Assembly: GCA_012959995.1 (NCBI GenBank)
Contig: DUCC01000026.1
Location: forward strand, 62,001-126,000
DNA from: Acidimicrobiia bacterium
GTDB lineage: Bacteria > Actinomycetota > Acidimicrobiia > Acidimicrobiales > MedAcidi-G1
DNA: 64,000 nt
Direction: 5' to 3'
The number at the start of each line of letters is the position of its first letter. The stretch's first letter is position 1. The notes below the pieces were generated by a model. The model was not told the DNA's origin, searched no databases, and saw only the letters and a list, made by a program, of their open reading frames with translations. A program made the translations under genes and the position numbers. This document shows, piece by piece, positions 11,510 through 17,106 of this stretch.

Positions 11510-14041
11510 TTGTTCGAACGTTTTACTGACAGGGCCCGCAGGGTGGTGGTGTTAGCGCAAGAAGAGGCGCGCACCCTTAACCACAATTACATCGGAACCG
11601 AGCATATTTTGCTTGGTTTGATACATGAAGGCGAAGGGGTAGCAGCGCGTTCGCTGGACTCTCTTGGTGTGTCCCTTGAAGCAGTACGCGAACAGGTTGA
11701 AGAGATCATTGGCCAAGGCGGCCAAGCGCCCAGCGGCCACATCCCGTTTACTCCGCGAGCAAAAAAAGTTTTAGAACTTTCGTTGCGTGAAGCCCTTCAA
11801 TTGGGCCACAACTACATCGGCACCGAACATATTTTGTTGGGCCTTATTCGCGAAGGCGAAGGGGTAGCCGCTCAGGTACTCAGCAAACTCGGCGCTGACC
11901 TTTCTCGGGTGCGCCAACAAGTTATTCAACTTTTGTCAGGATATTCCGGCAGCGGGAGCGGCCCGGGTTCCGATGCGCAAGAAAAAAGTGGCGCAACTTC
12001 TGGTGGCAGTGGCGGCGATGCTTCGTCAGGATCGGTCATCCTGGATCAATTCGGCCGCAACATGACGCAGCTGGCTCGCGACAATAAACTTGACCCGGTC
12101 ATTGGCCGATCGCGTGAATCTGAGCGGATCATGCAAGTGCTTTCTCGACGTACAAAAAATAACCCAGTGCTGATTGGTGAACCAGGGGTCGGCAAGACAG
12201 CAATCGTGGAGGGCTTGGCGCAACTCATCGCTAACGATGAGGTCCCTGAAACCATTCACAACAAACAGCTCTACACCCTTGATTTAGGCGCCCTGGTAGC
12301 CGGAAGCCGCTACCGCGGAGACTTCGAAGAGCGGTTGAAGAAAGTATTGAAAGAAATCACCACCCGCGGCGACATCATTTTGTTCATCGACGAAATCCAT
12401 ACTTTGGTGGGCGCCGGTGCGGCTGAAGGAGCCATCGACGCAGCGTCCATTTTGAAGCCCATGTTGGCACGCGGAGAATTGCAAACCATCGGGGCCACCA
12501 CTCTAGATGAATACCGTAAACATTTTGAAAAAGACGCCGCTCTGGAACGTCGTTTTCAACCGGTCAAGGTAGATGAACCTTCGGTGGCTCACACCATCGA
12601 AATTCTTAAAGGCCTGCGGGAACGTTACGAAAGCCATCATCGGGTAACCATTACCGATCAAGCGTTGGTGGCGGCCGCCAACTTGGCTGATCGCTATATT
12701 TCTGACCGCTTTTTGCCCGATAAGGCCATTGACCTTATTGATGAAGCAGGCTCACGTATGCGCATTAAGCGCATGCGTACCCCAGAAGACTTACGAGAAC
12801 TTGAAAGCTCCCTCGCTGAGGTTACGCAGAAAAAGAAATCAGCGGTCGAAGCGCAAGACTTTGAAGAAGCAGGCCAACTCCGTGACCGCGAAAAAGAACT
12901 CCAAGCAGAAAAAGAAGAACGAGAAGGAGAAATTCGTGAAACCGGCGTCGACTTATTTGACGAGGTAGACGAAGAATCTATTGCAGAAGTTCTTTCCGTA
13001 TGGACTGGCATACCGGTGTACAAGTTGACCGAAGAAGAGACACAGAAACTTCTTCGCATGGAAGACGAACTACATAAACGAGTCATCGGTCAAGAAGATG
13101 CCATTAAGGCAGTTAGCCAAGCGATCCGCCGCACTCGAGCGGGGTTAAAAGATCCGAAACGGCCTTCTGGTTCGTTTATTTTCTTAGGCCCTTCCGGGGT
13201 AGGCAAAACTGAGTTGTCTAAAGCATTGGCAGAGTTTTTGTTCGGCGATGAAACGGCCCTTATTGCGCTCGACATGTCGGAATACATGGAAAAACACACG
13301 GTAAGCCGTTTGGTTGGTTCCCCTCCGGGTTACGTGGGTTACGACGAAGGCGGCCAGTTGACCGAAGCGGTGCGCCGCCGCCCCTTCTCGGTGGTGTTGT
13401 TCGACGAGGTAGAAAAAGCTCACCCCGATGTGTTCAACACGCTGTTGCAGATCCTCGAAGAAGGCCGACTTACCGATGCGCAAGGAAGGTCGGTGGACTT
13501 CCGCAACACGGTACTCATCATGACCTCTAACTTGGGTACGGCCGACTTGCGCAAAGCCAACTTGGGCTTTACCAAAAATGATGAAGCGGTGAGCTACGAA
13601 CGAATGAAAGCCAAAGTGCAAGATGCTTTGAAAGATCACTTCCGGCCAGAGTTCTTAAACCGTATTGACGACACCATTGTTTTCCATGAACTCAGCGTTG
13701 AAGAAGTCACCCGCATTGTGGACCTCATGGTCAAGCGTTTAGCCAAGCAATTGGCGGGCCAGGGCATGGGCCTTGAACTCACCGACGCCGCTAAAGCGCA
13801 CTTGGCTGTCCAAGGCTATGACCCCTCAATGGGAGCCCGCCCCTTGCGGCGTGCTCTGCAACGATTGGTCGAGGACCCGCTCTCGGAGCGCCTTTTGCAT
13901 AAAGAGTTCAGGGCCGGAGAAATAGTGATCGTCGATGTCGAAGATGACGAAGAAAACGCCGGTAAACAAAAAATCGCCTTCCGTACCATCGAAGGCTTCG
14001 AGCCCCCAACGGTCGAGATGGCAGTTGAGGGAGCGGAATAA
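11510..14041 (+). CDS. clpC: ATP-dependent Clp protease regulatory subunit ClpC
   Basis: ClpC is the AAA+ unfoldase that feeds substrates to ClpP and disaggregates proteins in the cytosol. The 843-residue protein has two N-domain repeats (each with [14 protein letters not shown], about residues 25-38 and 100-113), a Gly/Ser-rich linker near 145-175, AAA1 with Walker A GEPGVGKT at 223-230, a UVR segment ([13 protein letters not shown]) and AAA2 with Walker A GPSGVGKT around 560. The start is TTG with AGAGGAG about eight bases upstream, which matches the family N-terminus [12 protein letters not shown]. No CtsR or HspR box was recognised in the 98-base upstream gap. Confidence 0.96.
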
Positions 14042-14099: not shown

Positions 14100-15656
14100 A
14101 TGCGACGCCTTCTTCCTCTCTGGATTTTTGGGGCCTTGCTGGGTTTAACGGCATGCCAAGTGGACACCACGGTGACCATCAACGTGACCCCCGATGGTTC
14201 GGGCGTCGTTGAGGTAGCGGTGGCCCTTGATGAAGAAGCGCTTCAAGTCGTAGGGAATCTTGAAGACCAGTTGCGGTTGAGCGATTTAACCGACGCCGGG
14301 TGGACCATAGAGGGACCCGAACAAGCAGCAACAGGCGGGACGACCCGACTGTACGCCAGTAAACCCTTTGCTGTGCCTGAGCGGCTTCCTGCGGTGCTGC
14401 GTGATATTGCCGGTCCGGGAGTATTTACCGACGTGACCTTGACCAGAGAGCGCTCGTTTGCGCGCACCTCTTGGGCACTAACCGGGTCGGTGGACCTCAC
14501 CACAGGGCTGGCTTTGTTTAGCGATGCTGAACTTGATGCCACGCTGTCGGGGCTTACCCTGGGGCACACCGAAGAAGAAATCCGTGAGTTAACGGGCTGT
14601 GCAGAAGAAAATTGTTCTGCCGAAGATGCCTTTGCTTTTGACCTTCAGGTGGTTCTACCAGAAACCGGGGCCACCAACGGGTTAATGCAAGATGGGGTGG
14701 CCCACTGGGAATTAGGTTTAGGCGAAGAACTCGCTGAGCCGTTTACTTTGTCTTGGACACTTGAAGACCGAACACCGCGTATGTGGCGAACCGTGGCGGC
14801 GATAGCGGCCGCGCTTTTTGTGTTGGTGGTGGTTTTGCAAATCGTGCGACTGGTGATGGGCCGCCAAGCGGGTCCGACACTTCCTAGACCTTCGGTACCC
14901 ACCCGTCGAGCAAAAAAAGGCACGCCACTTCCCGTGGCGGAACCACAGGAATCTGGGGAGCGCACCCTAGAGCTTTTGGTGCTGGGCGGAGTTGGGGTCA
15001 TTTGGGACGTGGGTACCGACCCTGAAGGTTTGTTAGTGCCTTTCGTGCGCCAACGTGGCGGGATCGCCAACCCTCAAGAAATCGCTGAGCGCTATCGGGC
15101 GGCAAGTTTAGGACACGTTTCTGCTAACGATTTTTGGTCCTCGGTGGGGATCACCGGGATAGAAGCCGACTTGGATGCGGAATATCTTTCGCAGGTAGGA
15201 ATTCGCTCGGATGTCGTACCTTTCTTGGACCGTATGAAAGAGCGCAACCTTCAGGTGGCTTGTTTGACCAATGCGGTTTTGCCGTGGTCGGTGCAGCTAA
15301 AGAACCGTTTCGGGCTCGATGACTTGATTCAACATTGGGTGGTCAGCGGCGAAGTAGGGGCGCGTAAACCTAGCCAAGCAATGTTCGAAGCATTACGCCG
15401 CATGACCGGTGTTTCGTTTCACAATATGTTGTTGATTGATTCTGATTCAGCCACGCTAGAAGCAGCGCGCGGCATGGGGTTATCTACGGTTTTGTTACGC
15501 GGCACGGCACTTATTCCTGAAGGTTTCCCTCACCCGGTAATAGATGGGTTCGCCGAGTTGTTCAAGCCCAGCACTCCCGCCCCGCCCCCAGAGCCGACTC
15601 CTATTGAAGCCGATGTGCTCCCTGATGAGCCGCCAGAAGAGTCGGCCGATTCTTAG
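14100..15656 (+). CDS. LppM-like lipoprotein domain fused through a membrane helix to a HAD-like pseudoenzyme domain
   Basis: The 518-residue protein begins with a lipoprotein signal peptide (MRRLLPLWIFGALLGLTAC, lipobox Cys19). An extracytoplasmic region with VTINVTPDGSGVVEV and a C-x4-C pair (GCAEENC) resembles the LppM/DUF3153 family. A transmembrane helix spans about residues 229-253, followed by a basic stretch that should face the cytosol. From about 290 there is a HAD-IA-like fold: LLVLGGVGVIWD in motif I, CLTNAV in motif II, GARKPS in motif III and LLIDSD in motif IV. The motif I nucleophile Asp is Val, so the HAD part is probably inactive. The ATG at 14100 was chosen because it gives the signal peptide directly. 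It follows clpC by 58 bases; function unknown. Confidence 0.8.
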   Translation: MRRLLPLWIFGALLGLTACQVDTTVTINVTPDGSGVVEVAVALDEEALQVVGNLEDQLRLSDLTDAGWTIEGPEQAATGGTTRLYASKPFAVPERLPAVLRDIAGPGVFTDVTLTRERSFARTSWALTGSVDLTTGLALFSDAELDATLSGLTLGHTEEEIRELTGCAEENCSAEDAFAFDLQVVLPETGATNGLMQDGVAHWELGLGEELAEPFTLSWTLEDRTPRMWRTVAAIAAALFVLVVVLQIVRLVMGRQAGPTLPRPSVPTRRAKKGTPLPVAEPQESGERTLELLVLGGVGVIWDVGTDPEGLLVPFVRQRGGIANPQEIAERYRAASLGHVSANDFWSSVGITGIEADLDAEYLSQVGIRSDVVPFLDRMKERNLQVACLTNAVLPWSVQLKNRFGLDDLIQHWVVSGEVGARKPSQAMFEALRRMTGVSFHNMLLIDSDSATLEAARGMGLSTVLLRGTALIPEGFPHPVIDGFAELFKPSTPAPPPEPTPIEADVLPDEPPEESADS

Positions 15657-15696: not shown

Positions 15697-17106
15697 ATGG
15701 CTTCATCTACATCACTTGGTTCGGCTCGCCCTCGGCGGGTATATGTATGTTCATCGTGTGGGCACTCCTACCCCAAGTGGACAGGAAATTGCGCACAGTG
15801 TCGCGAGTGGAACACCCTTGAAGAAACGGTGGTAGCGGGAGGTAACGCTTCCGTCCAGGTGGTGGTCTCCCGAGGAAAAGCAGTACCGCTAACCGAGGTA
15901 GAGCGGGTCACCGCTACCGCCCAAACTACCGGGGTGGCAGAACTCGACCGAGCACTGTCAGGTGGTTTAGTGCCCGGGTCGGTCACCTTGTTGGGTGGCG
16001 AGCCAGGTATCGGCAAATCTACGTTGACCATGCAACTGGCCGCCTCGTGGGCCAGCCAAGGGCGCCGAGTGTTGTTGGTGAGCGCAGAAGAATCAGCGGC
16101 TCAAGTAGGGCAAAGGGCAGAACGTCTCAACGCTTTACATGACGACCTTTGGCTCGCTACCGATGCGGCGGTAGAAGCGGTAGTAGAGCAACTCGACGAA
16201 CTGGCTCCCGAGTTGCTGATCGTGGACTCTATCCAGACGGTGCATATCGAAGGAGCGGGGGCCACCCCGGGCACACCCGGGCAAGTACGCGCTTGTGCCC
16301 ACCGGTTGGTGGCTGAAGCCAAAACAAGAAACATGGCCACTATTTTGGTGGGGCACTTGGTGAAAGACGGGTCGCTAGCCGGGCCCAAAGTCCTCGAACA
16401 CGTTGTAGATACGGTGGTGGAGCTTTCTGGCGATCGCCACCATGCCTTACGACTGTTGCGGGTGGCCAAAAATCGTTTTGGTCCCACCGACGCTTTGGGG
16501 GTGTTCGAAATGAGCATGGAGGGTTTGAGTTCCGTAAAAGACCCCAGCCGACTCTTTTTGGTTGATCGGGCCACCGAATCACCGGGGTCGGTGGTTTTCC
16601 CTGCTTTAGAGGGCCACCGCCCGCTGCTCGTTGAGTTGCAAGCCTTGGTGGTACCTTCAACCACCCCGCATCCGCGACGCTCCTCACAGGGGATCGACGC
16701 TCGTCGGTTGGCGTTGTTGTTGGCTGTGTTAGAGCGGTGGGCCGGGCTGCCTTTAGGTTCGGTAGATGTTTTTGTGGGAGCGGTAGGCGGAGTAGCGGTC
16801 ACCGAGCCCGGGGCCGATCTGCCGTTGGCTTTGGCGGTGGCTTCTGCGGCCACCGGCCGGCCGCTTAACCCGGACACGGTGGCTTGTGGCGAGGTCGGCC
16901 TGGGCGGAGAAATTCGTCAAGTAAGCCGTAGTGAGCAACGTTTAGGAGAAGCCCACCGGTTGGGGTTTCGTACCGCAGTGATTCCTCTGTCGGCCCCCGA
17001 ACCGCCGGAAGGCATGCGGGCGATTCGGGTAGCCACGGTGGCCGAAGCAGTAAAAGTCGCTCTACAAGCAGACCGCTCTTTCCCCGAAGAGATTTCTCGG
17101 CAATAA
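15697..17106 (+). CDS. radA: DNA repair protein RadA (Sms)
   Basis: RadA is a RecA-like branch-migration helicase used in recombinational repair. The 469-residue protein has an N-terminal zinc finger (VCSSCGHSYPKWTGNCAQC, a C-x2-C/C-x2-C pair), Walker A GGEPGIGKST, Walker B LLIVDSIQTV, the RadA-specific KNRFG motif (VAKNRFGPTDALG) and a Lon-protease-like C-terminal domain with GVAVTEPGADLPLALAVASA. Length is normal. It lies 40 bases after the lipoprotein fusion gene and 7 bases before the dienelactone hydrolase gene. Confidence 0.96.
   Translation: MASSTSLGSARPRRVYVCSSCGHSYPKWTGNCAQCREWNTLEETVVAGGNASVQVVVSRGKAVPLTEVERVTATAQTTGVAELDRALSGGLVPGSVTLLGGEPGIGKSTLTMQLAASWASQGRRVLLVSAEESAAQVGQRAERLNALHDDLWLATDAAVEAVVEQLDELAPELLIVDSIQTVHIEGAGATPGTPGQVRACAHRLVAEAKTRNMATILVGHLVKDGSLAGPKVLEHVVDTVVELSGDRHHALRLLRVAKNRFGPTDALGVFEMSMEGLSSVKDPSRLFLVDRATESPGSVVFPALEGHRPLLVELQALVVPSTTPHPRRSSQGIDARRLALLLAVLERWAGLPLGSVDVFVGAVGGVAVTEPGADLPLALAVASAATGRPLNPDTVACGEVGLGGEIRQVSRSEQRLGEAHRLGFRTAVIPLSAPEPPEGMRAIRVATVAEAVKVALQADRSFPEEISRQ

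Follow-up and report, generated by a model that had tools for sequence, protein, structure and literature searches.

An LppM-like lipoprotein fused across the membrane to a predicted pseudo-HAD domain in marine Acidimicrobiia

Locus and architecture of the fused protein

The window (the whole 64,000-nucleotide stretch of DNA that was analysed) carries clpC (11510..14041), a gene for a 518-residue fusion of an LppM-like part, a membrane helix and a predicted pseudo-HAD domain (14100..15656), and radA (15697..17106), all on the forward strand. As the preliminary description stated, the fusion gene directly follows clpC; the gap measures 58 nt, on the same strand. Its open reading frame starts where those of its homologues do and matches Pfam PF00702 with an E-value of 5.6e-10. 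An alternative in-frame start at 13935 overlaps clpC, and both the lipobox and the homologues favour the ATG at 14100. No match to plasmids was obtained, and no promoter-like site appeared in the stretch scanned. Terminator-like sites number 5 where 2.6 would be expected (sd 1.5), and they are located within coding sequence.

The open reading frame, the alignment, the structural models and Foldseek all bear out the domain order given in the preliminary description, in which a lipobox, an LppM-like ectodomain, a single helix at residues 225-253 and a C-terminal HAD domain share one 518-residue chain. The lipoprotein signal peptide (14100..14156) ends in the lipobox LTAC, where Cys19 (codon 14154-14156) is invariant in 33 aligned fused proteins. 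It is followed by the ectodomain (residues 20-222; 14157..14765) and by the membrane helix (residues 225-253; 14772..14858), which is helical in both models. One Lys/Arg residue precedes this helix and seven come after it, a charge bias that also appears as a trend in the homologues and fits an outside-to-inside orientation. A basic linker (residues 254-286; 14859..14957) is predicted to be disordered, with pLDDT below 50 at 255-286, and leads to the HAD domain (residues 287-490; 14958..15569). The latter is HAD subfamily IA-like and reaches pLDDT values mostly above 90 in a full AlphaFold model built from 33 homologues.

Given that Pfam alone fell short of LppM for the window protein, the ectodomain was assigned by profile-profile and fold comparison. 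A single-sequence Pfam search of the window protein gave no PF21946 match, matches were found in six of 12 N-domain relatives (the best listed at 26.3 bits against a cut-off of 27), and a PDB sequence search with the N-domain profile returned nothing real. Comparison of a model of the first 287 residues (42 homologues, pLDDT 89.9) with the PDB by Foldseek gave a single match with E below 0.001, namely 2nc8, the LppM of M. tuberculosis (E 2.6e-8, probability 1.00, TM 0.56 by target length). Alignment of the ectodomain profile to true LppM proteins of the PF21946 type by hhalign reached 97.3% probability. The ectodomain is a distant relative of LppM, and is filed as such rather than as LppM. The window genome additionally encodes a separate, closer LppM above the PF21946 cut-off (G000 contig C5:20880-21398, locus L177). 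That gene adjoins one for a patatin-like phospholipase, a pairing seen again in L175 and L176.

Catalytic motifs and selection in the HAD domain

The Rossmannoid HAD core fold is present in the window protein, and the HAD assignment is confident by both domain search (PF00702 at 40.4 bits versus a cut-off of 26.4) and structure comparison (Foldseek to 3cnh, E 9e-10, TM 0.79 by target length). The subfamily model TIGR01509 scores 24.9 bits, under its cut-off of 29.4, which a catalytic relative from a sister family clears. HAD hydrolases use a covalent nucleophile, the motif I Asp, and HAD nucleophiles sit at the end of strand β1. The preliminary description took Val294 to be the residue that replaces this Asp, a placement two residues early that the homologue alignment rules out. 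PDB sequence alignments begin after motif I, and the register was taken from the homologues instead. In catalytically complete homologues, motif I is V-x-x-L-D-G-M-G-V or VVLDAMGVIY; VLGGVGVIW of the window protein aligns to it with no gap, which puts the Asp-to-Gly replacement at residue 296, where strand β1 of the window model also terminates. Gly296 (GGC, 14985..14987) is found in 45 of 45 distinct family sequences, as opposed to Asp in 24 of 24 canonical relatives. A shifted Asp was rejected as nucleophile, given that D303 varies among D, E and Q and D307 among D, N, H and G. With no invariant Asp nearby, the claim of a lost nucleophile holds. The sole invariant acid near motif I is E309, which canonical relatives lack and which, together with D371, is specific to the family.

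Motifs II to IV had been described as recognisable, and this is true of Thr390 (15267..15269; Thr in 43 and Ser in two of 45 sequences), Lys423 (15366..15368; 45/45) and Asp447 (44/45). It does not extend to the second Asp of motif IV (15438..15443), which is Ser448 in all 45 family sequences reaching it, versus Asp-Asp in 24/24 canonical relatives. In relatives such as β-phosphoglucomutase this second Asp is a metal ligand. Thr390, Asn391, Arg422, Lys423, Pro424 and Asp447 are kept and rank among the least variable HAD positions across the 45 distinct family sequences. Just six positions combine a fixed residue in the family with a different, near-fixed one in catalytic relatives; two of these are the lost Asp residues. 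Judged by its sequence, then, the window HAD is a pseudoenzyme, a member of the fold and not one of the enzymes. Canonical relatives themselves have no acid at motif I +2, where Met, Arg or Phe is found, so the domain may not descend from a standard phosphatase at all.

Within the family, sequences are on average 71% identical in the HAD domain, 52% in the ectodomain and 29% in the linker. Simple Nei-Gojobori counts over ten close pairs give dN/dS ratios of 0.00-0.08 for the HAD domain, 0.06-0.20 for the LppM domain and 0.13-0.73 for the linker, with distant pairs set aside on account of synonymous saturation. That is to say, the HAD domain appears dead as an enzyme by its residues yet strongly kept by purifying selection, and the close-pair ratios rule out its decay for this family.

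Spread of the fusion and recurrent change at the nucleophile

All 37 sampled genomes of the window's family carry the fusion, a few of them cut by contig ends, and the named close relatives are marine Acidimicrobiia (MedAcidi-G1, MedAcidi-G2B and AG-410-I20). Across the order, where 298 genomes were sampled, the fusion is present in families f1, f12, f17, f18, f25, f27, f28, f35, f36, f41, f45, f53, f56 and f57, that is, in the window's family and 13 others, and the LppM-like part stands alone in the remaining families of the order and in other sampled orders of the class. The missing catalytic residues, and the several families with no HAD on the LppM-like gene, might suggest a decaying remnant or an assembly artefact. 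This explanation is extremely improbable, and for the family it is refuted by the HAD dN/dS of close pairs and by the 37/37 genomes, which, with the many other families, also dispose of the concern that two separate genes had been joined by error. The fusion is real and old. On a clpC/radA tree, whose deep support is weak, its presence needs at least five gains or losses, and it may have had a single origin with later HAD losses.

Throughout the class, the LppM-like gene lies after clpC and usually before radA; clpC is its neighbour in nearly all sufficiently long loci of the order, as well as in other orders. Adjacency to clpC and radA was not found in the more distant Actinomycetota looked at. 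In some loci radA is missing and a dienelactone-hydrolase-like gene follows the LppM-like gene directly (L003-L008, L013, L020 and L030); these belong to part of the family and include most of the window's genus. L045 departs from the other loci in that its LppM-like gene and the clpC and radA genes lie on different strands, so the LppM-like gene does not share their transcription unit everywhere. The preliminary description thought a link to proteolysis worth considering, and a membrane adaptor whose HAD side presents substrates to ClpC or regulates it would fit an adjacency that holds across the order and into other orders, with the 58 nt gap and shared strand seen here. We regard such an adaptor as very unlikely: the adjacency also holds in HAD-less relatives and thus leaves the HAD unexplained, the L045 gene is inverted, radA is linked nearly as well, and farther actinobacterial relatives are not near clpC. 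Gene order, which HAD-less relatives share, is the only evidence for a putative ClpC link.

A survey of the motif I residue across the order indicates that change at the nucleophilic Asp is recurrent. Complete relatives (f18, f25 and most of f28) have LDGMGV[IL] or LDAMGVIY as motif I; their motifs II, III and IV carry Thr/Ser, Lys and Asp-Asp, respectively. Elsewhere residue 296 is Gly (f45 and f56), Asn (f36), Glu (most of f17 and of f41, and one of f53) or His (f12), while f35 keeps the Asp and has lost the motif III Lys and motif IV. A second lineage with Gly296, f56, keeps Lys423 and has Asn or Ser for the second motif IV Asp. A minimum of seven changes between Asp and non-Asp is required on a HAD tree from whose alignment the motif columns were left out, and a minimum of six on the neighbour-gene (clpC/radA) tree, from which f56 is absent; both trees are quick, with some weak branches, and the counts are approximate. 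On the neighbour-gene tree, the window's family has f28, with its mostly full catalytic set, as one of its closest relatives, so the simplest reading is a nucleophile loss on the branch of the window's family itself. Two fates can be told apart: the pocket persists although the nucleophile and the second metal ligand are gone (f1 and f56), or it is eroded (f41, f12 and f35), so not all members depend on keeping it. One genome with a degenerate fused HAD also encodes, elsewhere, a second, related HAD with motifs I-IV intact and no recognisable LppM part (L150, G272:C1:101188-101709).

The same survey bears on whether the domain might still be an enzyme through another residue or another chemistry. 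In favour of this, Thr390, Lys423, Asp447 and Ser448 show little or no variation, and E309 and D371 are invariant acids of the family. The covalent nucleophile of HAD enzymes is missing, however, no nearby invariant acid aligns with it, and the Gly, Asn, Glu and His found at 296 in other families resemble relaxed catalysis more than a single new chemistry; we consider continued catalysis improbable.

In the 14 groups of the order with figures, linkers are between 17 and 361 residues long. The linker is disordered in the window model, and acidic and repetitive in places. In f56 (L145, L146, L147, L148 and L171) the segment between helix and HAD spans 245-361 aa and is acidic, and that of L145 is visibly built from repeats, e.g. 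DFEDLSGDFEDLPTRPATPPGSPS. This range of lengths and the disorder make rigid transmembrane signalling less likely and suit a leash better. The earlier proposal of a transmembrane sensor or scaffold is accordingly narrowed: it remains the best class of explanation, given the strong selection on a dead HAD, with its rigid-signalling form disfavoured.

A proposed binding role and comparison with known systems

Taken together, the results lead us to lean modestly towards a protein with two anchors whose HAD domain would not catalyse but would keep a phosphorylated ligand or a partner protein at the membrane. The lipid anchor and the single membrane helix would form a double tether, with the LppM-fold domain outside touching an envelope lipid or glycolipid. 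Such lipid contact is plausible by analogy, since M. tuberculosis LppM binds phosphatidylinositol mannosides (PMC6151718) and the window genome encodes an inositol-1-phosphate synthase. Inside the cell, the HAD domain, with its nucleophile and one metal-binding Asp gone, would no longer hydrolyse. The remaining Thr390-Asn391, Arg422-Lys423-Pro424 and Asp447 may then form an anion pocket that lacks a nucleophile and a full metal site, in which a small phosphorylated compound or a partner protein would be bound uncleaved and held at the membrane on a flexible leash. From the residues present we infer that the window HAD does not catalyse and that its role is probably one of binding; because the other residues of the phosphate pocket persist with little variation, binding without cleavage is the most likely form.

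That a HAD without catalytic residues can act by binding proteins is illustrated by PcrP/PA2803, which is inactive in assays and binds proteins (PMC12632274). This precedent also lends itself to a regulatory pseudo-subunit, in which the dead HAD would associate with another enzyme, such as an active HAD phosphatase, to control or localise it as a tether for a protein partner. In its favour, dN/dS is very low across the entire HAD and not just in the pocket, and f41 and f35 retain the domain despite an eroded pocket, which would suit surface contacts. Against it, no partner gene is linked, and no close catalytic paralogue of the window HAD was found in its own genome (one match only); we rate a pseudo-subunit as rather unlikely, though less so than the adaptor or a surviving enzyme.

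Returning to the anchored binding module, a broader and more tentative extension, which we hold to be possible though on the unlikely side, is a class of one-chain envelope receptors that combine an outer, lipid-reading LppM domain with an inner HAD and in which enzymes turned into binding modules several times independently. If true, this class would be a natural series (complete, pocket kept, pocket eroded) for the evolution from enzyme to receptor in one gene at one locus. Full, dead-but-preserved and eroded HAD domains occur across the order mostly at the same genomic address, a set that makes testable what selection retains once catalysis is lost. The fusion further suggests that a cytosolic arm is possible for LppM-type lipoproteins. 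Bacterial HAD-fold pseudoenzymes are scarcely described; among the open-access papers found, PcrP is the one demonstrated experimentally.

No LppM-HAD fusion was found in the open-access literature, and the protein is a new architecture assembled from known domains. With M. tuberculosis LppM (Rv2171, PF21946, PDB 2nc8) it has in common a lipobox and, by Foldseek and profiles, the ectodomain fold; its ectodomain is merely 16% identical, however, and the open-access literature found describes no cytosolic HAD for the M. tuberculosis protein. HAD subfamily IA variant 3 (TIGR01509; YihX, 3cnh) shares with the window HAD the fold, motifs II and III and the first motif IV Asp, whereas the window HAD lacks the nucleophilic Asp and the second motif IV Asp and is membrane-tethered. 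The PcrP/PA2803 subfamily resembles the window HAD in having the fold without catalytic residues, and a non-catalytic role would be expected for both. In contrast, PcrP is phosphonatase-like, comes from Pseudomonas and represents another lineage, and none of its motifs retains the catalytic residues and its cap is abbreviated, where the window HAD keeps part of its pocket.
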